From positions 1 through 43,511 of IMG/VR virus record IMGVR_UViG_3300012917_000009: a stretch of DNA of 43,511 bases; one strand, given 5' to 3'. The stretch is from a virus. Below are positions 990 to 26,124 of the stretch, one piece after another; position 1 is the stretch's first letter, and each line of letters starts with the position of its first letter. The translations under genes were made by a program, and so were the position numbers. A model generated the notes under the pieces. That model was not told the DNA's origin and made no database searches. It saw only the letters and a program-made list of their open reading frames with translations.

Positions 990-1501
990 CGGCCGATCCG
1001 CGTTGGTTTCGATTTCCCAGCCGCATGGAAATCCGTCGGCTCAGGTTTTGGCTGACTTCGAAATCGCGCACCGGCTGGACACGAGCACGGCCAGCCGTAG
1101 GTGTGGGGACGCGAACACGGCCAGGTGCTGTTGTCCGCCGTATGGACGCGCGGTCGCCCGCAGGTTCTCGCCTCACCACCAGGACACTGCGCCATCACGA
1201 GCCCGTAGTCATCACACGCAGAACAGAGGTAGTGCCATTCCCGTGTCTGCGGCCAGGCCGCCCGTAAACTCTGCTCGAGGCCCCGTTGCCGTTCCTCGAG
1301 CGAGATCCCCTCCGCTTTCTGCGCATCCCATAACCGCATCGCCGCTCGATACGTCTGCGCGAGGGGCCCGAGTTGCTCGGCTGCCCGTGCGGCGCGGAGT
1401 TGTCGTCGCACGTGACGATGCGCCTCCCGTAACGCCTCGGCGGTGTCGGCCGCCGCCAATTGTTCCACGGCCCGCGTCAGGTCATCCGACTGCGAATCCA
1501 T
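986..1501 (-). CDS. unknown, helical N-terminus with Cys/His-rich C-terminus
   Basis: I do not recognise this 171-residue protein. Residues 1-85 are Ala/Arg/Glu-rich and probably helical. From about residue 91 there are many cysteines (CSAC at 93-96, then CPGG, CGRP, PCSRP, PCSCP) with histidines, consistent with bound zinc. It overlaps the end of the replication initiator by 20 nt and the nuclease by 4 nt. Its place directly after an initiator would suit a helicase-loader or primosome accessory role, but no Walker motif is present, so that remains a guess. Confidence 0.6.
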   Translation of the reverse strand: MDSQSDDLTRAVEQLAAADTAEALREAHRHVRRQLRAARAAEQLGPLAQTYRAAMRLWDAQKAEGISLEERQRGLEQSLRAAWPQTREWHYLCSACDDYGLVMAQCPGGEARTCGRPRVHTADNSTWPCSRPHTYGWPCSCPAGARFRSQPKPEPTDFHAAGKSKPTRIGR

Positions 1502-2324
1502 GTGCCACCTCCCACGCTTTCAAGCGATCATCGGCCCAGGAACATTTTAGCGCAAAGATCTTAAAACTCCGGTCGGTCTTCGCAATCCAGACGTCGTCAG
1601 TCGTCAGAATGATTTCGGCCAGTTTCGCGAGCGTCGCATCGTCCCAGAGTGCCACGAGTGAACAGGCATCGTGCCAATCGAGATGCTCCCGTTGCCGATA
1701 GCGCGCGCCATGCCGGAATTTCGTGTAGAGCGCCTGATACAAGCGCACGAGATTGCCAGCACGCTCGGCCTCCGCATCATCGACGCCAGATCGAATCGTC
1801 GGCCACGCGCGCACATCGGCGGCCACGTGCGGACGCGTGACCACCGGAGCCGGCGCAGCCGACTCGCCTTCCTTGCGATCCGAGAGATCCGAAGATCCCG
1901 AAGATCCCGAAGATCCCGCCCGGCTCGCCATGTCCTTGGCCTGTCCTAGGTCTGTCCTAGGCCTAACCTTGGATCGACCTTGGCCACGCGCGTAAATTGG
2001 TGCTGGTAAAACACTTGCGGCTTCGCGTGGGTGGGGATGCTGATGTGATTTGAAGGTGATTACGTGAATATACGACTTGTTTTTGACTTGATATCGAGTG
2101 ATTAGCTTTGATTGTTCTAACGCGGTGAGCGCCGCATCCACATCTAGCTCTTCGGTGGGGAACAACTGGAGCTTGATCGCAAGCGGGCGATCCTCGAGCC
2201 GGCCTTCGCGATCGGCCAGCGTCCAGAGCCCCGCAAATAAGAGCCGCGTGAGCGCCGGCAACGCGAGGAGATCTTCGTTAGTAAAAAAGGTGGGATGGAG
2301 AAGACGAATCCGCGCCGTTCGCAT
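1482..2324 (-). CDS. phage replication initiator, winged-helix (O-like/DnaD-like)
   Basis: Likely origin-binding replication protein of 280 residues. The N-terminus (RIRLLHPTFFTNEDLLALP, then RLLFAGLWTLADREGRLEDRP and an LFP motif) is the typical start of phage replisome-organiser winged-helix proteins. A low-complexity Ser/Gly linker (about residues 135-150) separates it from a C-terminal helical domain with many Trp and Asp residues. I chose the ATG at 2324, ten bases after an AGAGG ribosome site; a GTG at 2333 is also open. The linker DNA holds an origin-like repeat array. No helicase or polymerase is visible in the window, so this protein would recruit host replication proteins. Confidence 0.75.
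   Translation of the reverse strand: MRTARIRLLHPTFFTNEDLLALPALTRLLFAGLWTLADREGRLEDRPLAIKLQLFPTEELDVDAALTALEQSKLITRYQVKNKSYIHVITFKSHQHPHPREAASVLPAPIYARGQGRSKVRPRTDLGQAKDMASRAGSSGSSGSSDLSDRKEGESAAPAPVVTRPHVAADVRAWPTIRSGVDDAEAERAGNLVRLYQALYTKFRHGARYRQREHLDWHDACSLVALWDDATLAKLAEIILTTDDVWIAKTDRSFKIFALKCSWADDRLKAWEVAHGFAVG
1877..1915. repeat. cluster of five GATC sites in 39 bp
   Basis: GATC occurs at 1877, 1886, 1894, 1903 and 1912; the last three belong to a tandem 9-bp unit GATCCCGAA. It encodes part of the Ser/Gly linker of the initiator, so a codon-driven origin is possible. It lies immediately beside the CCTWGG array and may belong to the same origin. Confidence 0.75.
1934..1983. repeat. iteron-like array: five CCTWGG boxes at 11-bp spacing (candidate origin)
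   Basis: CCTTGG or CCTAGG begins at 1934, 1945, 1956, 1967 and 1978, each exactly 11 bp after the last, about one helical turn. The first three are extended by TGT upstream (TGTCCTWGG). Because 11 is not a multiple of 3, the period is not a by-product of codon repetition in the initiator gene that contains it. The array is followed at about 2041-2122 by visibly AT-richer DNA that could unwind. This arrangement resembles the lambda origin inside gene O. Confidence 0.65.
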
Positions 2325-2454
2325 GTGGGGCACCTCTCTGAAAGGTGAAGAAGTGAGCGAGGGGTCCCCGTGTTCAGAGCACGGCGACGTAAAGCAACGG
2401 CCGGCCAGCCGTCACCTCGCTCGAGATCGATGCTACAACATTTGGGCCGGGAAG

Positions 2455-5764: not shown

Positions 5765-6346
5765 TTAAGCAGCCTTCCAAATCCGACCGGCTCGAATATT
5801 GGAGATCGTGCAAGCCTTGACGCCATAGAGCGCCGCCAGCACAGCCGGCCGCTCCGACGACTGGCGAATCGCGCCGATGTCTCCCCATGTGAGCTTCGCG
5901 CGGGCGTGGCGTTCGCCGTATTGATGACGCCGCTTGCTCACCATGTCATGGGCATTGTCGCCGGCCGTTCCCAAGAACAAATGCGACGGATTGACGCAGT
6001 GGCGAACATCGCAGCGATGGCACACGCACGTGCCATGAAAACCTTTACCGGTCGGAATCGGTCCATACGCGAAAATCCACGCGAGGCGATGCGCGGCCAA
6101 ACTCCGACCAGCCTTCCCGTCACTGAATCGGCCATACCCAAAATTCGTGATCGTGCCGCGCCACGGCCAGCACTCATCGGGGCCGCGTTTGTCCACATGC
6201 GTCATGAATCGTTCTTCTGGAGTGCCAACCTGAATCGCCGCGTTGTGGCCCCAGATGAAGCGCTGCGGCCCGTCCTGGCGTCGCGTGCGACTTCGCCATT
6301 GCGACCGGAGCGGTTGGCCGCAGCCGCACTCACACAAGGCAGACAT
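5765..6346 (-). CDS. HNH homing-type endonuclease with C-terminal HTH
   Basis: A 193-residue HNH nuclease of the type found as mobile genes in phages. It starts with a Cys cluster (CECGCG, then a WGHN motif). The nuclease core reads [41 protein letters not shown] and GDNAHDM, with zinc-binding Cys and catalytic His residues. The C-terminus ([15 protein letters not shown], then [15 protein letters not shown]) is a NUMOD-like helix-turn-helix that would set DNA specificity. The ATG at 6346 follows GGAGAG. It lies inside the recombination module and overlaps the exonuclease gene by 17 nt, suggesting insertion at a gene boundary. Confidence 0.88.
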
Positions 6347-6986
6347 CACGCTCTCCTTGCAATTGCCGCACGCTGTCTAGCTCGTCCTGAACTTCTCGCA
6401 AGAATTGCCGCACGAGTAGTTCATGGCTATCCCGTTCCGCCTGAGACATCGTGACGCGCACCAGTTTTACGCGCAGTGAGGCGGGAAAGTCCGGGTTGTA
6501 GGAGAGCCAATCACACCACGGCGCGCCCATGACCCACAGTAAATGCTGGATCTGTTTCAGATAGTCGCCCGGCACGATCCCGGTTTTCAGCGTATCCAGA
6601 TGCGTCGCCGGCAGCGGACACTTAGCCTCCACCAATCCGTCGCCCACCACGCCATCGGGGGAGCCGCCCGCCATCAACGTGGCATGGGCGACAAACCCGA
6701 TCCGCTCCACCAGCTCGCCTGTCACGGCTTCGTATTGGGCGAGGGCTTCAGCTTCCCGCTCGATGCCCTGCAACATCGCCGGCGACTGGTAGTCCCGCTC
6801 CTGACTGCGGCCTGTCAGCCGCTCGAGCACGAGTTGGACCCGATAATTCCGTCGGCCGGCCGCTTCCCCGCCGCTTTTGAGCGTCGCGAGCATGTCCGCG
6901 GCCCGGCTCGAGGTCGCCCGACCGAGTCTGGCCTGAAACCACGCCTCGGACCGCTGAGGCGCTTCACAGACGGTGAACTCACGCAC
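6330..6986 (-). CDS. YqaJ-type recombination exonuclease
   Basis: A 218-residue protein of the lambda-exonuclease/YqaJ fold that degrades one strand of double-stranded DNA ends to expose single strands for annealing. Visible are [16 protein letters not shown] near residues 12-27, a Glu in the [12 protein letters not shown] helix, GGSPDGVVG with the catalytic Asp and VEAKCP with the ExK pair, then [10 protein letters not shown]. It begins at a GTG (6986) overlapping the end of the ERF gene by 8 nt, so the two partners are coupled. Together they form a Red-like pair. Confidence 0.9.
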
Positions 6987-7665
6987 GGCTGGCCTTCGGC
7001 CGCATCTTGGCGACGGCTTCCTCGTGGGCGAGCTCGGGACTGACCGGTGTTTTTGTCGTATCGACGAACGTCGCCCGCTCTTTCAGCGTGTCCACGGTCT
7101 TCGGCGCGGTCTGCATCAGGAAATCGCGCATCGTCTGGGGCGATTCCCGCCAAAACGCTCGCATCGACTCTAACCCGCTTTCGGCCGCTGTGGTGAAGCC
7201 GGTCAACCAGTCGCTATACCCCGGCGGCATTTGGGGCACCAGCACCGGTTTCTGGGTCTTGCCGTTCCCGCGGCCTTCGGCGGCTTCCCCGTCATCGTCG
7301 GTGTCAGGAGCCACGCCCACCATGGATGTCAACTGAAAACGCTTGAGATAGGTAATGCAGCTCCCCACCGCTTGCGGGCCCGGATCCTTCGCCTGCACCT
7401 GCAACACATCGCTCTCGATCCACTCTCCGCTGCTGTGGGCTAGTTTGGTGGTCAGGCGCACAAGCACGCCGTCCGTGGAGGGAGATTGGATGAACGCAAT
7501 CTCGTTGGACGCGAGCGCGGCGCGACACGCGTCCATGACGGCGGTCAGGCTGCTATAGCGCGAGCTGTAATGTGGATTGCGCGAATCTTTCTCGGCGTTC
7601 TCGATCGTGCCCTGCGCTTTCGCCAGGGCCATGGCGATCTTGGCGATGGATTCAGACTGCGTCAT
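6979..7665 (-). CDS. erf: ERF-family single-strand annealing protein
   Basis: A 228-residue recombinase of the P22 Erf family, which binds and anneals single-stranded DNA. The N-terminal domain shows the typical run ALAKAQGTIENAEKDSRNP, then YSSLTAVMDACRAAL, a GVLVRLTTKLAHSSGEWIES segment and GSCITYLKRFQLTSMVGVAP, followed by an acidic DTDDDGEA linker. The C-terminal 90 residues are variable. It is coupled to the downstream exonuclease. Replication of circular or concatemeric phage DNA and circularisation of ends are the usual roles. Confidence 0.9.
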   Translation of the reverse strand: MTQSESIAKIAMALAKAQGTIENAEKDSRNPHYSSRYSSLTAVMDACRAALASNEIAFIQSPSTDGVLVRLTTKLAHSSGEWIESDVLQVQAKDPGPQAVGSCITYLKRFQLTSMVGVAPDTDDDGEAAEGRGNGKTQKPVLVPQMPPGYSDWLTGFTTAAESGLESMRAFWRESPQTMRDFLMQTAPKTVDTLKERATFVDTTKTPVSPELAHEEAVAKMRPKASRA

Positions 7666-15738: not shown

Positions 15739-15905
15739 GCGAGCGCTCCTTGATCGGGCCATGTGCGCCTAGTGCGGCAGACTGCGCAGATCCACGTCCA
15801 GTGCTTCGTGGTCACGCCAGGCGTCGGACCCCACTGCAACAACATCTGCCCGTGGCCATGCGGACAGGGACAGGGCGTCAACGGATTCGGCCAGTCCTCA
15901 GCCAT
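15735..15905 (-). CDS. small zinc-ribbon protein
   Basis: A 56-residue protein (MAEDWPNPLTPCPCPHGHGQ, then WTWICAVCRTRRTWPD) with Cys/His pairs that would form a zinc ribbon. The ATG at 15905 overlaps the end of the methyltransferase gene by 8 nt. No function recognised. Confidence 0.6.
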   Translation of the reverse strand: MAEDWPNPLTPCPCPHGHGQMLLQWGPTPGVTTKHWTWICAVCRTRRTWPDQGALA

Positions 15906-16548
15906 GCCGCAACGCCTGCAGGAGCTGCTTGCCAATGAACGTCGTATACGCTGGCGGGATCGCCTGCGTGAGTTCGGCCGCCGTCATCCAGTCGATGCCC
16001 ATTTCGCGCGCCCACACTTCCTTGCTCGAGACCAGCATCGGTCGTGAGCCTTTTCGCCAGGCGCCGCCCTTGCCGTGACAGTGCCCGTAGACGCCCGTGA
16101 TGGGGTTCGAGTGATCACAGGGTTGTGGATGGAGCCCGAAGAGCGCCGGGGCCTCGAAGTGTCGATGCCGCTTCACGCCGAGCCCGAACATCGACCCGCA
16201 GAGGGTGAACGAGGGAACAACGGGCGCACCGGGTACGTTCTCGATCACCCACACGCGACCGGACCGAATCAACGCGTCCCGTGTTTGCGGCACGAGTTTC
16301 GGATACATCGCTTTCTTCGTGTGGTGAATCATGCCACTCTGTAAGTAGCCCTGACACGGCGGGCTGGCATGGATCGCATCGAACCCCGCCCCGAACGACT
16401 TCACGAACTCCAGCGCATCGGCTTGCACGAACTGAAACGGATACCGCGGCTGCGGTTTGATGTCCACGCCGACGATTTCCTCGAAGCCCGCGCGATGATA
16501 GCCCACCGCTGCCCCGCCCGCCCCGCAGAACAAATCCAGCAGTCTCAT
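15898..16548 (-). CDS. C5-cytosine DNA methyltransferase, compact
   Basis: A 216-residue enzyme that would methylate cytosine C5 using AdoMet. Motif I DLFCGAGGAAVG is at residues 5-16, motif IV ASPPCQGY with the catalytic Cys at about 61-68, motif VI VIENVPGAP near 100-108, motif VIII KRHRHFE near 125-131, and motif X AYTTFIGKQLLQAL near the end. It is much shorter than bacterial enzymes (usually over 300 residues), with a small target-recognition region, as in several phage versions. It is coupled to the zinc-ribbon gene upstream by ATGA and probably protects phage DNA. Confidence 0.92.
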   Translation of the reverse strand: MRLLDLFCGAGGAAVGYHRAGFEEIVGVDIKPQPRYPFQFVQADALEFVKSFGAGFDAIHASPPCQGYLQSGMIHHTKKAMYPKLVPQTRDALIRSGRVWVIENVPGAPVVPSFTLCGSMFGLGVKRHRHFEAPALFGLHPQPCDHSNPITGVYGHCHGKGGAWRKGSRPMLVSSKEVWAREMGIDWMTAAELTQAIPPAYTTFIGKQLLQALRHG

Positions 16549-17014: not shown

Positions 17015-17268
17015 TATCGGGCCCCCCGTCGATAGAAGAGTCCGAACAATTGGAGGGCCGAGGCGCCGACCACGCCATACCCGAGCGTCTCAATCCGGCT
17101 CAGCCGTTCGTTCATGGCGCCGATTTCGGTTTCGAGCACCGAGAGCCGATGCTCGTTCTCTAACACTTTGAACTCGACGGGTTGCGCGGCCGCCACAATC
17201 AAGAGCAGCCCGAACCCGATCTGGGCCGCGCCGACACACCAGAAGGCGAGCCGGCTGAGACCACTCAT
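17014..17268 (-). CDS. two-pass membrane protein with central coil, possible holin
   Basis: An 84-residue protein with a membrane span at about 7-28 (LAFWCVGAAQIGFGLLLIVA), a coiled-coil middle (VLENEHRLSVLETEIGAMNE, then RLSRIETL) and a second hydrophobic stretch at the end (GVVGASALQLFGLF). It resembles small holins or XhlA-type membrane proteins. It is followed by the spanin-like gene and overlaps the upstream structural gene as ATGA, so lysis is plausible but unproven. Confidence 0.5.
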   Translation of the reverse strand: MSGLSRLAFWCVGAAQIGFGLLLIVAAAQPVEFKVLENEHRLSVLETEIGAMNERLSRIETLGYGVVGASALQLFGLFYRRGAR

Positions 17269-18689
17269 CGCATTTGCTCCAAGAGGGCATTCCGCTGCGC
17301 GGTCAGGGGGGATACCTGCAAATTCTTGAGGGCCTGAAGCGACGCGCGCCGTCTGGCCGACTCCGCCACCTGGCCTGCGGTCGTCGCCGCTTGATCCTCG
17401 TCGGGCACCGCAAAGAGCGGGGAGTCGGGATTGGCGTCTCGGAGCCGGCTCATCTGTCGAGCGTCCAAGCGCGCCCGCGCAGCGGCGACGGCTTCGGGCG
17501 ACGGTTGATTCGCGGCCGAAAATCCGGCTCGCGGCCGGTACGCGGCGTTGGCGCTCGCGACGTCGGCATCGGTCGGGATGCGCTGGCCCGCTCCTGGAAT
17601 CGCGTCGGCGCTCGTCAAGCCCAAGCGCGGAGGCGGTCCCCCTTCGGACTGGAAGACGCGGCCAAACCGTTCCTGCGCCCGTTCCTGGGCCACGGAGCGA
17701 CCGCTCCCGAGCTGGTCTGAGAGATCGATTTCGGTCGCTGCGGGCGCGGCGCGCGGCGCGCTGGCGGCTGCACGCATCCCTTCCAGGGAGGGCGCCATCG
17801 CGGGCGCGGACGCAGGGCCGGTGCCGCCCCCCGGCTTCAGGTACGTGGCGACGGCCTGCTGCATCTGCTGCTCGATCGCGGCGTTTTTCGCCGCACTGGC
17901 GGCCTGATCGGCCGGGGCGGCGGACGTTGGAGGTCTCCCACGCGGATACGAGGATCCGGGGACTTCGGTGCTCCGGATGGGCCAGCCTGTCTCATGGGGC
18001 GCGTTGCTGCTCACATTCGGCGCTTGTCGGTAGACGGGAACACGATTCCAGCTGCTGAGGTCCGGCGCTCCGGCTGAGACATCCCCCGCAGTGGCATCCC
18101 ACAGGTTCTTGAGGATCTTCCCACCTTTGGCGTATTTCCCGATGATCGGCAACTTCGAGGCGATGCCAAGTCCGGTATCCACAGCTTCGCTGCTCGGTCC
18201 GCGCAGGCCCTTTAAGGCTTGCCACGCGGCCGGGGCATATTGCAGCGCCTTGGCTCCCCCGTACGTGAGTGCGGCATCCCGGACTGGGCGATAGACCGCA
18301 TCGGTCATCGATTGGGGCGCCTTAGGGTCGTCGCGCGCCGCTTGTAAGGCTTCAGCGAGGGCCGAGGCACCTCCAACGACGCCAGCCGCGACGGGAATCG
18401 AGGCCCCAAACGTCGGCAACGAGGCGGCGAGTCCTGCTGCGGTCACGAGTTTCGTTGGGGTCGCCGCCTCGCCGACGCCACTCCTGAGACCCTTCCACCA
18501 GGAGCTGCCAGGCGACTCACTATCCGAGAGTCCTGGATGGTAGCCGTCGGCGCTCGGGTGCGCGTGCAACACGTTGGCGAGAAAATCCAGCGGCCCTTGC
18601 GGGGCGGTATTCTGCGGTGTCGCTGGCGGCGGCTGGCCGCCCGCCTGTCCCGTCCGTTGATCGTGGAAATCACTCAACCGTTGCGGCAT
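17265..18689 (-). CDS. putative internal virion/ejection protein 1
   Basis: A 474-residue, Ala/Pro/Gln-rich protein. Residues about 78-115 are hydrophobic (TKLVTAAGLAASLPTFGASI, then VAAGVVGGASALAEAL) and could enter a membrane; most of the rest is low complexity with short helices (MQQAVATYL, VAAARARLDARQMSRL). Long, Ala-rich proteins next to the portal-tail genes of podoviruses are often ejected with the DNA. No lytic domain is visible. It is the first of four such genes in a row. Confidence 0.5.
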   Translation of the reverse strand: MPQRLSDFHDQRTGQAGGQPPPATPQNTAPQGPLDFLANVLHAHPSADGYHPGLSDSESPGSSWWKGLRSGVGEAATPTKLVTAAGLAASLPTFGASIPVAAGVVGGASALAEALQAARDDPKAPQSMTDAVYRPVRDAALTYGGAKALQYAPAAWQALKGLRGPSSEAVDTGLGIASKLPIIGKYAKGGKILKNLWDATAGDVSAGAPDLSSWNRVPVYRQAPNVSSNAPHETGWPIRSTEVPGSSYPRGRPPTSAAPADQAASAAKNAAIEQQMQQAVATYLKPGGGTGPASAPAMAPSLEGMRAAASAPRAAPAATEIDLSDQLGSGRSVAQERAQERFGRVFQSEGGPPPRLGLTSADAIPGAGQRIPTDADVASANAAYRPRAGFSAANQPSPEAVAAARARLDARQMSRLRDANPDSPLFAVPDEDQAATTAGQVAESARRRASLQALKNLQVSPLTAQRNALLEQMR

Positions 18690-18692
18690 GAC

Positions 18693-20123
18693 TTACTGCC
18701 CTTGTTCCGCGAGTCGAATCACGCTGAGCGCGTGGGGACCCAGTTGACCATCCAGGAACTGTTCGAGGTGCTTGCTCCCGCCGGCCTGTTTCCGCATCGC
18801 ATCATACGCGCCGTGCAGGAGTTGCCCTTGCTGAGCGACGTACCCCTGGATCTGATCGTCCGAGCTGTTGGAGGTGATTCCGCCGCCCATCGATTGGCGC
18901 AACGCATCGGTGCCGCCTGTGCCAGCCAAGAGCCGTCCCATCTCGCTTTCAACCCCCACTTGCTGGAGCTTGAATTGCGATTGGCGCTTATCGCCCAAGA
19001 GGAGACTATCAAAGGCGTTCACGGCGGTGTTGACCGGCTTGCCACCAAAATTCACGTTGTTCAGGTTCTTCCCGAGCTTGTCGAGCGTGTACAGATGCTC
19101 CGCCGCCTGATTCAAGCTCCGCAGACGTTGGCTGAGCTCCCCAGAGGTCGCATCGACCCGCAATTTCTGGCCCGCATCGTATTTCGTCAAGTCGAACTCC
19201 GGGTCGATCTGCCGTGCGAGATTAGCGAGGTGGCTCCAGCGTGGCGATCGGGCCAGCATGTATCCGGTCATCGGCGTGTCGTAGTTCAGGAGGCTTTTGA
19301 CATCGGCCTGACTCGCCGGGTCGAGTTGACTCATGATTTGTTGCCCGTGCTCGCTAGCGAGGGGATCCGCCGCGCCTGACGGCGATGATGCGGCGCCTGG
19401 CACGCTCCGCACTGACGGGGTTGGCGATTCAGCGGGCGCCGCCGTCGCCCCGCCTTGCAGGGGCGGCATGATCCCTTGCCCGATACCGGCGAGCCGTTCC
19501 TTGCCCGTCTGCTCACGATTCGCGAGAATCGATCCGGCGGCACCCGTGGCCGCGAGGTTCTCGCCCTGCCCCTTTCCATAGGCGGTCGCTTGCGCGGTCT
19601 GTCCCCCTTCTTTGATCTGCTGCTGGCGCATCGCCGCCACGGCTGGTGTATTATAGGTGGTCGTCTGAACCCCCGCGGCATCGGCTGCGTCTTGCTGCTG
19701 TTTCGCCCGCGTGGCGACGTTGGCATCGCTGTACGGATTCGCGTTAGCCGATTGTTCTTGCATCCCCAACAGCGCGCGGAGACTCGTGTTGCTCCGGTCC
19801 TGATCGCTGGCCATCCCCGCCGCCTTGCCCGGATCCAGGCCCATTTGCGAGACGGGATTCCGGAGCGACGTCGTCAGGGCGTCCTCGACTTCGCCTTGTC
19901 GTGCGGATTGCAAAGACGCGAGAGCTAAGCCAGCATTCGCGCCCCCCACGTCGCCCTGTCCTGGGAGCATGAACCGCTTGAGCGCGTCCTTGCCGTAATC
20001 GCTGCCAGCCACGGGTCGGGTCGTCGCCCCGCTCAGATCGTACGGTTCGCCTGGACCTGGATCCATCGTGAGGTCCACGAGTCGTCGCTTCGGTGTCAGC
20101 AGATCCATGAAGGCATTCGCCAT
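18693..20123 (-). CDS. putative internal virion/ejection protein 2
   Basis: A 476-residue protein from the ATG at 20123 (TAATG junction; frame open to 20351). The N-terminal half is low complexity (Ala, Gln, Gly). From about residue 280 there is a defined domain: YMLARSPRWSHLANLARQID, DPEFDLTKYDAGQKLRVD, SLNQAAEHLYTLDKLGKNLN and YVAQQGQLLHGAYDAMRKQ. A similar SPRW...SLNxxxxHL...L domain occurs in DNA-transfer or internal proteins of several podoviruses, as I recall; no enzyme motif is seen. Confidence 0.6.
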   Translation of the reverse strand: MANAFMDLLTPKRRLVDLTMDPGPGEPYDLSGATTRPVAGSDYGKDALKRFMLPGQGDVGGANAGLALASLQSARQGEVEDALTTSLRNPVSQMGLDPGKAAGMASDQDRSNTSLRALLGMQEQSANANPYSDANVATRAKQQQDAADAAGVQTTTYNTPAVAAMRQQQIKEGGQTAQATAYGKGQGENLAATGAAGSILANREQTGKERLAGIGQGIMPPLQGGATAAPAESPTPSVRSVPGAASSPSGAADPLASEHGQQIMSQLDPASQADVKSLLNYDTPMTGYMLARSPRWSHLANLARQIDPEFDLTKYDAGQKLRVDATSGELSQRLRSLNQAAEHLYTLDKLGKNLNNVNFGGKPVNTAVNAFDSLLLGDKRQSQFKLQQVGVESEMGRLLAGTGGTDALRQSMGGGITSNSSDDQIQGYVAQQGQLLHGAYDAMRKQAGGSKHLEQFLDGQLGPHALSVIRLAEQGQ

Positions 20124-20551
20124 TAGACCGGTCTCCGATTGGTCGGATTGATACGCCGCATCGCCTGCTCCGCGGGGGTCATCGGGGCGTCCGTAGTCGG
20201 ATCCGCGGCGGCTTGCAACCCTGCGAGCGACGGTTGCGACGTGGAGGTACTCATCCCGGACGCCAATCCGCCCATTGACACGCGCGGCCCGAGCGCCTCG
20301 AAAAATCCGGGTGAGGCCACCGGATTCGCCTTCGATTGTGCCTGGGACCACCCTTTATTGAACAGGTCGATCCCGGTCAACGGGCCGTACTGTTCCCGAT
20401 CGGCCGCATCGCGCAATTGCTGGTGCTGTTGGGCGCGCTGATTCCAGAATTGCGCATTATGCTCGGGACTCCACGCCGGTTGATCGGCTTCAAAGGCGGA
20501 GAGCTGACCGTGCGCCGAATCGGGTGTCGCGCCTGGGAATTTCTTGGGCAT
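20123..20551 (-). CDS. unknown structural-block protein
   Basis: A 142-residue protein from the ATG at 20551 (MPKKFPGATPDSAHGQLSAF), with a Gln/His-rich coil (HNAQFWNQRAQQHQQLRDAA) and a C-terminal segment MTPAEQAMRRINPTNRRPV. It sits between the tail fibre and ejection protein 2 and probably belongs to the virion, perhaps as an assembly partner for those proteins. Confidence 0.5.
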   Translation of the reverse strand: MPKKFPGATPDSAHGQLSAFEADQPAWSPEHNAQFWNQRAQQHQQLRDAADREQYGPLTGIDLFNKGWSQAQSKANPVASPGFFEALGPRVSMGGLASGMSTSTSQPSLAGLQAAADPTTDAPMTPAEQAMRRINPTNRRPV

Positions 20552-20552
20552 G

Positions 20553-22124
20553 CTAGAGCACCTCGAGTTTGAGATGGATGGCATACGTCATCCCGGCGAG
20601 ATTCGACGCGTAATTCACCGTTTGGTACTGGATCGTCGTGGACGCCTTCACGTTGACCACAATCACGCCAGAGGACGCCGTTCCGACCGTGTTCGCCGTC
20701 AACGCGCCGGTCTGGCCAATCCCCGCCACGCCCAGAACTGGCGTCGCGTCCATCGTGATGCTCCCGCCCGTGTCGGTGTCCGTATACACGAGTTGCACAT
20801 TCGGCAAGGTCGATGATAGTGACCCGGCCGTCGTTTCGACCACGTACGCAGAGACGCGGTACATCCCGGCGCCGCTCGCGGGCACGGCATACAACGTGGT
20901 CGCGCCCACATTCGCCGTCAGGCCGGTCGTGTCAATTGTCGCGTACTCGGCTGGTACGCCACTACTGACGGTCGCGACCCCGTTGTAGCTGGTGACGCTC
21001 TTGCCGATCTGGATCCCGCCGGCCGCAAGAATGCGCAGGCGTTCAACGGGTTGCGTCGCCGTGGTGACATCCCGCGTCCCGAAGACGAGATCGCCTTTCG
21101 TGTTCCCAGAATCAACAATCTCTTGATACCCGATGTACGCCGGAGAAAAGTTCGTCGAGACACCCGATGAATAGCCCAAGCCAATGAGCGCATAGCCATT
21201 GGCCGCAAACCCCAACCCGCCAATGTGCAGATACAAGTCTGCGTTCGTGAGCGTCGCGGGTAGTGCTCCGTCCGACAGCTTCGAGAGGGTCAAGAGTGAG
21301 GCAAACGTGTTGGACCCCAGTGCAACGGCGCCATCGTTGTGCACGCGGAAGAGACTGACATTGGAGGAATTCAGCAGCTGAAAAGCCGACGTCGCGCTGG
21401 TGGCGCCATCGCCTTTGACCGTCAATAGCGCATTATCGGCCGCCCCATTGAGGAGCAGATGCCCGCCCTTGGTCAGCGTCGCGCGCACGAGCCCATTCGT
21501 GAACAGCAGGAAATCATGGTTTGTGAGCGTCCCGAGCTGGGCATTGCCGGCCACGGCAATATAGGCATCGAGCTGCACCGTGCCGTCCGTGAGCCGCAGT
21601 TGCGGGACACTATCCGAGGCCGCGCTCAGGACCGAGAGGGGCCCCGCGGGGCTCGCCGTCCCAATCCCTAATCGAAAGGTCGTGTTATCCCAGAAGAACT
21701 TGGCGTTGTCTTGACTGTAGAGGCCGCTGGTGCCCGCGAACACAATCGACCCCGGCGTCATCACCGTCGAGACCCCTGTTCCGCCATTCGCGACGCCGAG
21801 AATCCCACTGACCGCGGTCGTGAGACTCACTTTCCCCCAGGACGGGGCGCCGCCCACGCCGCCACTCAGTAAGGCATTCCCGGTCGCAATATCCGCCAGC
21901 CGGTTCAAGGACGTCGTCGAATCCGCATAGAGGAGATCCCCGATCACATACAGCCCGCTTCCGGTGCCTCCGCGGACCACCGCGAGGATCCCCGTGGTGA
22001 TTTGGCTCGCATCCGTCAAGGCTTGATCAATGAACAGGATCTCGAACATTTCATTGATGTTGGCGCCCAGCTCTGGCGTCCAGACCGGCCCGATGTGATA
22101 CGGCTTCGATCGATAGAGGGCCAT
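20553..22124 (-). CDS. tail fibre/receptor-binding protein
   Basis: A 523-residue protein typical of phage fibres. It has repeated NGGTG-type turns (GILAVVRGGTGSGLY and SGILGVANGGTGVS), GDLLYADSTTSLNRLA and WDNTTFRLGIGTASPAGPL, all common in fibre shafts, then a repetitive beta region and a C-terminal domain beginning YATIDTTGLTANVGATTLYA, YRVSAYVVET. That end resembles a globular receptor-binding tip. No intramolecular chaperone cleavage motif was seen. The long variable beta region would set host range. Confidence 0.8.
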   Translation of the reverse strand: MALYRSKPYHIGPVWTPELGANINEMFEILFIDQALTDASQITTGILAVVRGGTGSGLYVIGDLLYADSTTSLNRLADIATGNALLSGGVGGAPSWGKVSLTTAVSGILGVANGGTGVSTVMTPGSIVFAGTSGLYSQDNAKFFWDNTTFRLGIGTASPAGPLSVLSAASDSVPQLRLTDGTVQLDAYIAVAGNAQLGTLTNHDFLLFTNGLVRATLTKGGHLLLNGAADNALLTVKGDGATSATSAFQLLNSSNVSLFRVHNDGAVALGSNTFASLLTLSKLSDGALPATLTNADLYLHIGGLGFAANGYALIGLGYSSGVSTNFSPAYIGYQEIVDSGNTKGDLVFGTRDVTTATQPVERLRILAAGGIQIGKSVTSYNGVATVSSGVPAEYATIDTTGLTANVGATTLYAVPASGAGMYRVSAYVVETTAGSLSSTLPNVQLVYTDTDTGGSITMDATPVLGVAGIGQTGALTANTVGTASSGVIVVNVKASTTIQYQTVNYASNLAGMTYAIHLKLEVL

Positions 22125-22126
22125 CG

Positions 22127-22927
22127 TTAGTACTGAAAACTCGCCCCCGCCCCGGTCAACCCCTGCATCGCTTGCTGCAAGAGACCCATCGACGCGAGCT
22201 GTTTCTGCATGGCCAAGGTCGCCGCCGCTTGTTGCGCTTGAATATCCTGTCCCCGCTGTTGGATCTGTCCGGAGTACCGTGCTTCCTGCTGGCCGATGTC
22301 CTGGCCTCTCGTCGTGATCGCGTTCTCGGCGGATTTGGTCGCCAGATCGCTACTCGTTTTCGCGAGGTCTTCGGCGCCGTGCGCGATGATGTCTTTCGTG
22401 CCTTGGACCTGGGCCCCCGATCCACTCAAGCCTTGACTGGCGAGTTCGTCATTCAACGAATTGACCGCGCCGCGGGATTGTTGCCCGACTTGGTCCTTCG
22501 CCGTCGCAAACGCCGCATTCTGGGTGGTCGTCGCGCTGTTCTCCGCGCCGCCCCCGGCCCCGCCGTCGCCCATGGTTGGCGATCCAATCGGCACGGGCCC
22601 GCCCGACGATCCCGATCCTCCGCCTGGCCAGCCGACCGTCGGGCGGGCGCCGGTCGTGCCCCCGCCCGCGCCTCCCGTCACTCCGGTGCCGCCCGCGCCG
22701 CCGGTCCCACCGCCTACGGCGAGTAGTCCGGCGAGCGGCCCTGAATTGTACGCCCCGCTCTGAAATTGCCCGACGCGCGATCCGGCATCGGTCGGCGTCC
22801 GCCCCACGAGCCGCGTTAAGGGATCGAATTCATAGCCCGACGGCAGCCGCTTGGGATCGAATCCAGGCAGATTCGGGTTGAAGGTCGGATCGAACTGACT
22901 ATTCGTGACCCCGCCCAAGACTGGCAT
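22127..22927 (-). CDS. Gly-rich/coiled-coil virion protein
   Basis: A 266-residue protein with a Gly-rich middle (about residues 70-130) and an Ala/Gln-rich coiled coil after it (GAEDLAKTSSDLATKSAENA, then GQIQQRGQDIQAQQAAATLA). The order resembles small ejection or needle proteins of podoviruses. The start shares TAATG with the stop of the beta-propeller gene upstream. Confidence 0.55.
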   Translation of the reverse strand: MPVLGGVTNSQFDPTFNPNLPGFDPKRLPSGYEFDPLTRLVGRTPTDAGSRVGQFQSGAYNSGPLAGLLAVGGGTGGAGGTGVTGGAGGGTTGARPTVGWPGGGSGSSGGPVPIGSPTMGDGGAGGGAENSATTTQNAAFATAKDQVGQQSRGAVNSLNDELASQGLSGSGAQVQGTKDIIAHGAEDLAKTSSDLATKSAENAITTRGQDIGQQEARYSGQIQQRGQDIQAQQAAATLAMQKQLASMGLLQQAMQGLTGAGASFQY

Positions 22928-24504
22928 TAGCGTTCTCCGATCACGGTGTACGGGACATCAAACCCAAGCAAGGCAAAGTCTTCATTCAGCGTCGCGGTGT
23001 CAAATTCTAGCGTGAGGAATTTGCCGGCCCCGAGAATCGGCAACCGATGCCGACTGAGCGTCAGATCCCAGAGCATCGGACTTTGCGCCGTCGCGCCTTC
23101 GAGTTCTCCGACCGTCGGGACCACGTTCACCGTGCCACTGGGTTGAATCTTCCCGAAAATGGTCAGGTTACTCCAGAGTTTCTCCATCTGCTGCGTATCG
23201 TTCCCATAGGATTTCGTGCGAAGACTACAGACAATCGGGGAGAGGCCCCAATCGCTCTTGGTCTGCGTATCCATCGAGAGATAGCCCTCGAGCGATCCGA
23301 CCATCGCGTACGGATGCCCATCGGCCCCGACCGCCGTGACTTTACTCGTCGGCGTGAAGGCGTCGGTCTTGTGCGGGCCCCACCAGGTCTTGGTCTGGAG
23401 GTCGTATTCGATCCAGCGATTCAACGCGGTCGTACCGGCCGCCGCCAGATAGAGCCGATACTTCAAGGTCTCCGGCTCGATTTCTCCGAAAGCGCGCGGA
23501 AACATGGCGCGGTTGAAATACGTGCCCGTGGTAAACCACGTCCGCACGGCCCCGTCGGTAATGTTCTGCACCCCGTTCGAGTCCCACTGATAGACGCCGT
23601 CGCGCCAGAGCCAATAGGCCGTGTCGTTGAAGACCTCGACCGATTCTTGCGAATCACACCCGACCTGTTCCCCGATGACCGACGGCATGAAGTTGGTCGT
23701 GGCCGTCCCGGTGACACTCGTGAGCGTGTTTTTCTTCGCGACGCCGAGCGCGTTTTTTCGTGGAATCAACGCCGTAATCCCGTACGCATCGGCGCCGACG
23801 TGCGCGATCGGCAACGTATTCAACGCCCCCCAGGCGTACATCGTCCCCGCTTCGGTATACCGGAGGTTATCGATGTCCGTCCGACCCACGCCCCAGAGCC
23901 GCCCTTTCCATTCACAGATGAGCGTTAAATCGGGGGCCGTGCCGAGCGTGGGTCCGCTCACCGTCGGCAGGCCGGCATCCGACAGATCGTCCTGCACCGC
24001 CGTGACCGTGTTGCTGTCGGTCGAGATCCAGCTGAAGTACACGGCCCCCGTGCTGGTCGTGCGATAGATGCGCGCCCCCGTCACCGCTTCCGGCGAGAGA
24101 TTGATATTGGCCGCTTTCAAGTATTTCGCGGCAATGACGGTGCCGCCGTTCGTAATCAGCGGGCCGTAGTCACTTTCCGCGATCACATTCGCCGCCGGAT
24201 CCAACACGATGTAGGTTTGCCGCGCGAGATAGGTCCCCGTCAGCGATCCCCCAGCCACGCCGGACAGCACGAGCGGCGTCGTCGGGGGCAGGGGCGTCAA
24301 CAGTCGCACCGTGCCCGCCTGGTCAATACTCACCGGCCGTGAGCAACTGTTGACCATCACCAGATACTGCTTGAACCGCGCAAACCGGGGCGTATAGAGC
24401 GGCGAAACGGTGACGCTTGCGGGCAAGGTCAAGGGCGTACTGATGGCCCCGTTGCCATTGAGGCTTTGCAAACCGCTGCCGGCCTGGACGAGCGTGTAAC
24501 TCAT
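22927..24504 (-). CDS. beta-propeller tail-hub/DNA-stabilisation protein (P22 gp10-like)
   Basis: A 525-residue, beta-rich protein with propeller-type strands (ICEWKGRLWGVGRTDIDNLR, RKNALGVAKKNTLTSVTG, TAYWLWRDGVYQWDSNGVQN, RWIEYDLQTKTWWGP). This matches the character of head-completion/tail-hub proteins that seal packaged DNA in P22-like podoviruses. Adjacent to it is a second beta-propeller protein. It lies between the head-tail adaptor and the fibre, as expected for a short tail. Confidence 0.7.
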   Translation of the reverse strand: MSYTLVQAGSGLQSLNGNGAISTPLTLPASVTVSPLYTPRFARFKQYLVMVNSCSRPVSIDQAGTVRLLTPLPPTTPLVLSGVAGGSLTGTYLARQTYIVLDPAANVIAESDYGPLITNGGTVIAAKYLKAANINLSPEAVTGARIYRTTSTGAVYFSWISTDSNTVTAVQDDLSDAGLPTVSGPTLGTAPDLTLICEWKGRLWGVGRTDIDNLRYTEAGTMYAWGALNTLPIAHVGADAYGITALIPRKNALGVAKKNTLTSVTGTATTNFMPSVIGEQVGCDSQESVEVFNDTAYWLWRDGVYQWDSNGVQNITDGAVRTWFTTGTYFNRAMFPRAFGEIEPETLKYRLYLAAAGTTALNRWIEYDLQTKTWWGPHKTDAFTPTSKVTAVGADGHPYAMVGSLEGYLSMDTQTKSDWGLSPIVCSLRTKSYGNDTQQMEKLWSNLTIFGKIQPSGTVNVVPTVGELEGATAQSPMLWDLTLSRHRLPILGAGKFLTLEFDTATLNEDFALLGFDVPYTVIGER

Positions 24505-26124
24505 TTACGGCTGATTCATCCCGAACAGCACGGGAATCGAAAACCCGCTATTGGTGTACGGAAAATTCGCGCTGGCATCGGTAAACGTGATCCCGTCACT
24601 CGACCACAGGAACACGGGCCGCGCCGCCAGCGCCGTTTTGGTCCCGAAGGCGTACAAGACCCCGTTATCGACTTGCAAGGTCACCGGATGTGCGGTCCCC
24701 GCGGCGCTGCCCGTCCACGGTGTCGTCCACGTCGTACCATCAAAGCTATAAATTTTCGCCAGCGAGGTCGTGTTGTACCAACTCGCGAAGAGCTTGTTGT
24801 TGAAGACCACCATGGAGACAAAGCCGTTCGGCGTCTGCGCCCCAGCGGCATCCGTCGCTTGTAAGACCGAGGTCGAGACATTCAGGCTCGTATAGCTGTA
24901 GATGCGCGCGAAGGTGGCGCCATGCGAGACATCGCCCACATATAAGAGGCCATTGTAGACCGCGAGACAGCCGACGTCCCCGATATTGGCATCGGCAATC
25001 GTGTTCGTGAAGGCCGTGCCCCACCCGAGCGTAAAGGTGGGATCGGGCCGGAGTTCCGCGAAGGTCGCCCCCGCCGTGCCGCCGGTCCAGGCCCCGACCC
25101 ACACCCGCCCGAGGAAGTTCGCCAAGGCAAATGGCACGACCGGCGTCCCACTCAACGCTCCGTAGCCGCCGAGCAGGCTGTTGAAGATCTCCGCGATCGT
25201 GTAGCTGCCGCTATCGAGGCCGGCGATCCGCAAGACGCGACCGTAGGATCCCGTCGAGACCCCCGAGGTCACGCTATCGAAGACCGCGCAGTACAGCGCA
25301 TCGCCGTTGCCCGATTCGGTGATCATCGCGTTGACCGACAGCGCGTGACTCGGCATGGGCGTAATCGCGAGCACCAGCGGATTATCGGGAATCGTCGCCA
25401 CGACTTTATCGGAGAGGCCATCCGGGGTGAGCCGTCGAATCACCGGCAACACCGGACTCACGGCCGGTGATGCGGTGCCTTGTGGGTAATAGAGCACGCC
25501 ATTGGCGATGGTCGTTAATTGCCCGGCTGCCGACGGCGCGCCGAGCGCCTGCACTTGGGTGCCACCTGGCGGCCCGGCTGGTGTTTGGCCCGTCCCCGTT
25601 CCCGTGAACACAATCGAGGCGACGTCGGCAAAATTCGCATCGCTCACAAACCAGCTATTGCCGTAATCGTTGGTCGCTTCGGTCGTGTCTCCGCGGCCAA
25701 TCACCACGAGCCGCGCACCATTGAACAACCGCGTTGGCGTGAAGATCGTCGGCGCAGGGGTACCGCCTGGCGTGCCGCCAGGTGGAGGCGTCGGCGTCCC
25801 TGGCGCCGCAATCGGTCCCCCGGGCGGAGGTGTCCCGGTCGGGCTGTTCGGATCGCTCACGGTTGGTGGCGCTCCTGCGGTGCCGACGACCGGCATCGCG
25901 AGGCCGCCCAAGACCGCGCCGCCGAGCGCTACTTGATTGAACCGCATCAATCCCGGCCGACAGCGGACCGCGCCGCCATAGCTCGCGGTCGCATCGTGGG
26001 ACACGTTTTGCGCGAGCACCACCTGATTGTCGGCGATGAGGAGCGGGTCCATGTCGATATGGACCCCACCCATGCCAAGGGAAAGCACTTTGAGTGACTC
26101 GTCTTGTGACTGCGGATCCGACAT
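24505..26124 (-). CDS. second beta-propeller-like tail protein
   Basis: A 539-residue protein starting with LSLGMGGVHIDMDPLLIADN, close to the N-termini of tail-hub proteins, followed by a Pro/Gly-rich linker (about 90-125) and then repeated blade-like strands such as NGLLYVGDVSHGATFARIYS, NNKLFASWYNTTSLAKIYSF and NGVLYAFGTKTALAARPVF. It probably forms part of the tail tube or hub together with the downstream gene, perhaps as a partner or diverged duplicate. Confidence 0.65.
   Translation of the reverse strand: MSDPQSQDESLKVLSLGMGGVHIDMDPLLIADNQVVLAQNVSHDATASYGGAVRCRPGLMRFNQVALGGAVLGGLAMPVVGTAGAPPTVSDPNSPTGTPPPGGPIAAPGTPTPPPGGTPGGTPAPTIFTPTRLFNGARLVVIGRGDTTEATNDYGNSWFVSDANFADVASIVFTGTGTGQTPAGPPGGTQVQALGAPSAAGQLTTIANGVLYYPQGTASPAVSPVLPVIRRLTPDGLSDKVVATIPDNPLVLAITPMPSHALSVNAMITESGNGDALYCAVFDSVTSGVSTGSYGRVLRIAGLDSGSYTIAEIFNSLLGGYGALSGTPVVPFALANFLGRVWVGAWTGGTAGATFAELRPDPTFTLGWGTAFTNTIADANIGDVGCLAVYNGLLYVGDVSHGATFARIYSYTSLNVSTSVLQATDAAGAQTPNGFVSMVVFNNKLFASWYNTTSLAKIYSFDGTTWTTPWTGSAAGTAHPVTLQVDNGVLYAFGTKTALAARPVFLWSSDGITFTDASANFPYTNSGFSIPVLFGMNQP

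Follow-up and report, generated by a model that had tools for sequence, protein, structure and literature searches.

An iteron array inside a phage initiator gene as the probable core of a replication origin

The array of five CCWWGG cores phased at 11 bp within the replication initiator gene P0001 very probably constitutes the initiator-binding core of the phage's replication origin. This reading, drawn from sequence comparison and structure prediction, was already that of the first-pass annotation; it is supported by the arrays found throughout the initiator family, by their order and by the covariation of two residues with the iteron, while the accompanying claims on GATC sites and on an AT-rich flank had to be revised. 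To our knowledge, most phage origins are unmapped. The window, which is the whole stretch of 43,511 nucleotides analysed here, is the linear IMG/VR virus record IMGVR_UViG_3300012917_000009, whose matches to portal, terminase, head and internal virion proteins give it the look of a tailed phage. The features on which the argument is built are the following.

1482-2333, minus strand: replication initiator gene P0001 (phrog_16167, E=3e-39; phrog_12556, E=4e-33)
1995-2324, minus strand: winged-helix domain at the N terminus, residues 1-110 (most block means of the AlphaFold2 model 92-98)
2037-2118, no strand: AT-rich stretch, possible unwinding region, the lowest-GC 82 bp of the record
2022-2045, minus strand: HQHPHPRE motif, residues 94-101, in which PR at 99-100 covaries with the iteron and H at 96 with the kind of second array
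1779-1991, minus strand: predicted disordered linker, residues 112-182, holding both arrays (mean pLDDT 35-56 in blocks 111-180)
1934-1983, no strand: iteron array, five CCWWGG cores spaced by 11 bp, to which the N-terminal domain is predicted to bind
1876-1918, no strand: second array of 9-bp repeats, GGATCTTCG on the coding strand, containing five GATC, at the same position as the CTGATTCC or GGRYCTTC arrays of the relatives

Results

The initiator and its genomic context

P0001 encodes a protein of 280 residues if translation starts at the ATG at 2324, or of 283 residues from the GTG at 2333, and the starts of its relatives align near the ATG position. Over its N-terminal domain it matches phrog_16167, a replication initiation protein (E=3.4e-39), and phrog_12556 (E=3.6e-33), and its matches to PHROG families 16167, 12556, 2149 and 1408 span E=3e-39 to 1e-18. 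No Pfam match rises above threshold for the window protein. In the AlphaFold2 model the N-terminal domain, whose first ten residues average 82, is made of helices 24-36, 47-54 and 62-71 and of a hairpin at 75-88, and it is conserved across 73 aligned sequences; no secondary structure is predicted in blocks 111-180 of the linker, and the C-terminal helices are predicted with low confidence. The best solved structures matched by the model, 4pt7 and 4pql, are N-terminal domains of RepA_N type, and the matches are weak (E 3e-3 to 3e-2), the top one having an E of 3e-3 and a TM-score by target of 0.46. A sequence search of solved structures with P0001 gave no meaningful match, and the C-terminal part used as a query against viral contigs retrieved no relatives.

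Among the scanned proteins of the record no helicase was recognised. A YqaJ-like exonuclease (PF09588) lies beside an Erf-like annealing protein at 6330-7665 and forms a recombination pair with it. An ORF open at the record end (1-723) is DNA methyltransferase-like (TSPPYWGLRDYG), and a second methyltransferase gene, matching phrog_363, occupies 15898-16548. A run of large minus-strand ORFs extends over 17265-26124; five of these, of 474-552 residues, were scanned against PHROG at E<=0.001, which gave an internal virion protein for one and nothing for the other four.

The 11-bp array is selected at the DNA level

The cores (CCTTGG at 1934, CCTAGG at 1945 and 1956, CCTTGG at 1967 and 1978) stand exactly where the first-pass annotation had placed them, within the minus-strand gene 1482-2333, and they fall in frames 1, 2, 0, 1 and 2 of the coding strand. 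Anywhere else in the 43.5-kb record, CCWWGG occurs at most twice per 60 bp. The spacers vary between the 11-bp units. The autocorrelation of the linker at 11 bp, a measure of self-similarity, scores 20.4, a value reached by none of 20,000 synonymous recodings that keep the peptide and follow the phage's own codon usage, the best of which scored 14.6; codon shuffles of the window gene (n=20, over all periods) gave a top score of 12.4. The failure of every recoding to reach the score, together with the presence of the cores in all three frames, argues for selection at the DNA level, and the earlier view that an 11-bp period is no codon repeat and points to such selection is thereby upheld. The motif and its phase are also found in the genes of loci L023, L047, L063, L101 and L108; in L023, the closest relative found, CCTAGG/CCAAGG at 11 bp is retained within a linker that is largely different. 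The GC skew is uninformative in this record, which is linear and has most of its genes on one strand; a clear switch at 2 kb was not seen.

A second array and an AT-rich stretch flank the iterons

The five GATC sites at 1877, 1886, 1894, 1903 and 1912 form the densest GATC cluster of the record, as had been noticed earlier for 1877-1915, and they are the content of a 9-bp repeat, GAAGATCCC. The corresponding stretch of L023, L063, L101, L108 and L047 contains no GATC, which rules out GATC, or Dam methylation, as a conserved origin feature: the sites exist, and they are a by-product of the 9-bp array. As its unit is a multiple of three, this array is conceivable as a repeat of codons (SSG), and its score is reached by one of 20,000 synonymous recodings.

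In most relatives the second array is made of CTGATTCC-like 7-mers, in place of which the window phage and its nearest relatives have units of 8 or 9 bp. The 7-bp arrays consist of two TGATTCC units followed by GGATTCC, CTTAACC or an offset where the stop codon TGA would arise in a third unit, and the same frame order is found in all 110 tandem 7-mer pairs. As a 7-mer cycles through the three frames, its third copy would bring TGA in frame, and an order that avoids this stop is expected for a DNA array kept within a coding frame. The peptide DSLNLIPDSLNLIP, which recurs in phage initiators, is therefore most readily understood as the in-frame translation of a 7-bp DNA repeat from which stops are kept out.

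On the other side of the iterons, the AT-rich stretch 2037-2118 has a GC content of 34.1%, against 62.2% for the record, whose least stable 80 bp start at 2040. The GC content of 2041-2122 lies below that of 99.6% of 20,000 synonymous recodings (P=0.004); the AT-richness is thus partly due to codon choice in the window phage. Across the family the AT bias is due to the amino acids encoded in the wing region (dGC -0.12, dGC3 +0.07), and an AT-rich signal acting at the DNA level was rejected for the family on that account. The flank proposed earlier at about 2041-2122 is thus present, and even stronger than stated, while its family-wide bias is driven by the protein. It is possible that it serves as the unwinding element in the window phage.

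The two-part design across the family

Searches with the N-terminal part by tblastn gave 74 phage records at E<=1e-3. Single-protein searches for close relatives in viral and bacterial contigs found none and alignment-based searches were needed; these yielded 80 viral and 80 bacterial loci, which together with the window and annotated phages make a survey set of 147 non-redundant genes. Nucleotides 288-600 of each gene were compared with the gene's own codon-shuffled linker, a test in which 3.7 genes are expected above the shuffle at each period. Period 11 was found in 104 of the 147 genes, and the phasing is therefore kept where codons differ; periods 22, 7, 14 and 21 were found in 90, 103, 76 and 96 genes, respectively. 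The same test gave values near background for the upstream, downstream, N-domain and C-terminal segments, and on lambda O, taken as a control, the statistic recovered the annotated iterons at periods 20 and 23.

Both array types are present in 107 of the 147 genes. A significant 11-bp family is missing in 36, and relatives that have the linker and neither type of array, the observation that would have spoken against the origin, are uncommon (4/147). In the 65 genes that have significant arrays of both types, the 11-bp one lies without exception 5' of the second. The window gene, with its 11-bp and 9-bp arrays, matches this linker pattern, in which a short-period array comes after the 11-bp one and which is described here and does not belong to the definition of the PHROG families. 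The initiator gene of Mycobacterium phage Fishburne, a member of the present family called 'RepA-like' in one record, combines an 11-bp with an 8-bp array. The two-part intragenic design is thus widespread in a family met with in phages and prophages from many bacterial phyla. PHROG families 16167, 12556, 2149 and 1408 carry a functional label only, and among open-licence papers we found no published description of intragenic arrays in their proteins.

Within the initiator gene of L138, about nine 15-bp units (TGATTCCTGATCCCT), read in frame, form a near-perfect array at nucleotides 418-551. In Pseudomonas phage SG_WM_Sew_P27 (L016, 2004-3086) the linker seems to be interrupted by an HNH-endonuclease-like insertion, and neither array type reaches the threshold.

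Blind scans of viral DNA

The arrays were also looked for in 2.9 million viral contigs with no protein as reference. A scan for three phased GCAC iterons returned 16 matches, every one inside an initiator gene of the present family, positions 99-100 reading R-D in 11 cases and VR, VK, IK, KD or KN in the remaining ones; the single match of the AAGCCC scan lies in an initiator gene reading HPHHRE. The CCWWGG scan is unspecific: of its 24 matches, two fall in a recognised initiator frame (L187, on the same contig as L047, and L188), a third (L190) in an initiator that has the sequence HQHPHPRE and is truncated at the end of its contig, and the remainder are mostly simple 11-bp tandem repeats, or minisatellites. 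Phased CCTAGG/CCAAGG/CCTTGG arrays at L206 (5752-5790), L189 (8283-8321) and L191 (9205-9243) lie outside frames of at least 40 residues, with no recognisable initiator in the fetched stretch; they are possibly minisatellites or sites of other proteins.

Residues 99-100 covary with the iteron

The columns of the protein alignment were ranked by their association with repeated 5-mers of the linker after control for overall protein identity, with no use of iteron classes. Column 99 comes first and column 100 second of 102, as they also do among the 56 variable ones (z 6.0 and 4.7). They are unremarkable with respect to the neighbouring N-domain DNA and to the second array; column 99 also ranks first, weakly (z 2.9), for the C-terminal 100 residues. 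With iteron classes that were defined after inspection of the motifs, residue class and iteron class are associated with a chi2 of 211 among the genes with a called iteron: V, I, C or L goes with GCAC in 45 of 46 genes, R/K followed by D/N with GCAC in 15 of 15, G with AACGT in 14 of 15, H with AAGCCC in 13 of 16 and P with CCTAGG in 6 of 10. Within the motif HQxPH-xx-E, both R/K-D and V/I/C/L pair with GCACnnTGC. PR at 99-100 accompanies CCTAGG in the window, L023, L047, L101 and L108; CCW2-3GG cores in 11-bp phase occur in 7 of the 10 P-R genes, the window among them, and in none of the 6 P-K genes. Furthermore, protein pairs that are 65-75% identical share their iteron class in 4% of cases when their residue classes differ, against 99% when they are the same, and at 50-60% identity the corresponding values are 9-15% and 80-93%.

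These observations support the view that the N-terminal domain of the initiator reads the iterons and that residues 99-100 are involved. The strongest covariation lies just after the wing, outside the predicted helix 62-71, so that of the earlier proposal of binding through the winged helix, the role of the N-terminal domain is retained and the helix is not where the signal falls.

The covariation could also reflect linkage in mosaic phage genomes, the codons for 99-100 and the array travelling as one module with no contact between protein and DNA. This alternative, which we judge unlikely, draws on the proximity of the motif codons to the array, about 40-95 bp, and on the indecisive outcome of the tree-based independence test: the tree of residues 1-93 has too few supported branches to count independent changes, and with so poor a resolution part of the covariation may be shared descent. 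Against it, the variable columns nearer to the array (103 and 108) rank below 99 and 100, the N-domain DNA next to the motif has no association with 99-100, and same-class proteins only 50-60% identical still share their iteron class in the large majority of pairs given above. If true, it would weaken the claim of recognition and leave that of an origin untouched.

For the second array it is column 96 that ranks highest (z 5.9), and N at this position goes with TGATTC arrays in 79 of 86 genes, R or K in 0 of 16. Over about 140 genes, residue 96 (2037-2039 in the window) is N, S or T mostly with TGATTC arrays, and H, R or K mostly with other repeats. The same segment could read the second array too, or the association could be one of shared descent, and we take it as a lead only. 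Could the segment HQ-x96-PH-x99-x100-E then read both arrays, residues 99-100 setting the 11-bp iteron and residue 96 varying with the kind of second array (CTGATTCC for N/S/T, mostly other repeats for H/R/K), in a very widespread class of origins? We put this forward tentatively, with a little less than even confidence. If so, it would amount to a recognition code, and a phage could switch its origin specificity through two or three residues.

Discussion

From the computed arrays, their conservation, their order and the covariation at 99-100, we infer binding, melting and helicase loading as follows. The N-terminal winged-helix domain would bind the five 11-bp-phased CCWWGG iterons, all of them presented on about one face of the helix, with a specificity set partly by the HQHPHPRE segment. 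The bound initiators would form an ordered complex that strains the flanking DNA, and one flank would open: the second array at 1876-1918 on one side, or the AT-rich stretch at 2037-2118 on the other. The host helicase would then be loaded at the opened flank by the C-terminal part of the initiator or by a partner, and the linker would be a tether under little protein constraint, which leaves its DNA free to serve as origin. The opening of a flank and the loading of a helicase by iteron-bound initiators have been described for lambda O and for plasmid iteron initiators (PMC5043065). As to the flank, the AT-rich stretch is physically the weakest, and the second array, on the other side, is the conserved partner of the iterons; since it is the conserved one of the two, we lean slightly towards the second array as the opening or loading element of the family.

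Iterons of plasmid initiators often serve a control role, and the arrays might similarly be an autoregulatory operator or a copy-control site, acting by self-repression or handcuffing, with the origin elsewhere; the covariation suggests that the N-terminal domain reads the repeats and says nothing on the effect of binding. We nevertheless regard this as improbable, because the array lies deep in the gene, away from the promoter, and is accompanied by a second conserved array in a fixed order, and intragenic sites of this kind are the origin in lambda O (PMC7466680) and in pSK41 rep (PMC5703833). A low-complexity linker born of codon slippage or minisatellite expansion and devoid of DNA function is strongly disfavoured, and we give it hardly any weight: the linker is indeed predicted to be disordered, the unit of the 9-bp array is a multiple of three and encodes repeated SSG, and 11-bp minisatellites that share the core exist elsewhere in viral contigs, but an 11-bp period is impossible as a codon repeat, the spacers vary, no synonymous recoding reaches the score, and the period recurs in more than two-thirds of the surveyed genes, with motifs that differ with residues 99-100 and with no such period in other segments.

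The intragenic origin thus remains the preferred reading, and its consequences extend beyond one phage. The origin would be readable from sequence across a large initiator family, in which two residues would predict the binding motif of each gene; origin specificity, incompatibility among related prophages and the way in which a DNA site evolves within a coding sequence become directly testable; and a protein linker can be shaped by a function of its DNA, as exemplified by the peptide DSLNLIPDSLNLIP.

Comparison with known systems

In phage lambda, the origin lies in the middle of gene O, the unwinding region adjoins the iterons and the helicase is recruited by the initiator system (PMC7466680, PMC5043065). 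The window resembles it in having its repeats in the middle of the initiator gene, the iterons starting at nucleotides 351-395 of the gene as compared with 349-416 of O for lambda iterons 1-4. The lowest-GC 82 bp of the record adjoin the array and may correspond to the unwinding region of lambda; in the family, the AT bias is driven by amino acids. It differs from lambda O, with its 18-bp iterons at 20-24 bp, by an 11-bp spacing and 6-bp cores, by an AT-rich stretch located 5' of the iterons in the gene and, in the family, by a second array of short period that takes the place of a plain AT-rich tract. No homology between P0001 and lambda O was detected (BLASTP E 2.6, hhalign probability 0.1).

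In the pSK41 rep gene the origin is central and the linker dispensable, and RepA_N proteins combine a winged-helix N-terminal domain of about 120 residues, a central linker that encodes the origin and a variable C-terminal domain (PMC5703833); 4PT7 is named as a RepA_N protein (PMC7145576). As in the RepA_N initiators of pSK41 and pTZ2162 and the RepA of the satellite PLE, the N-terminal domain of the window initiator is predicted to be a winged helix, possibly of the RepA_N/DnaD fold, and the array is central in the gene; the linker is predicted to be disordered. Unlike them, the window protein and nine relatives do not match RepA_N (PF06970), and the structural match is weak; the iterons of pSK41 and pTZ2162 are 8-9 bp repeats around a poly-A tract, those of the window short cores in 11-bp phase. 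For the RepA-like initiators of mycobacteriophages Miko, Rachaly and Jeeves, the origin is expected beside or within repA, as in lambda, and no repeats were reported in the regions between the tail genes and parS-L (PMC7157519).

In conclusion, the window adds a further case to a large group whose arrays we did not find described in the open-licence literature. The absence of homology to lambda O, the different geometry of the iterons and the lack of a RepA_N match place its system, by the tests made, in neither of the two families; it would work like lambda O and pSK41 rep.
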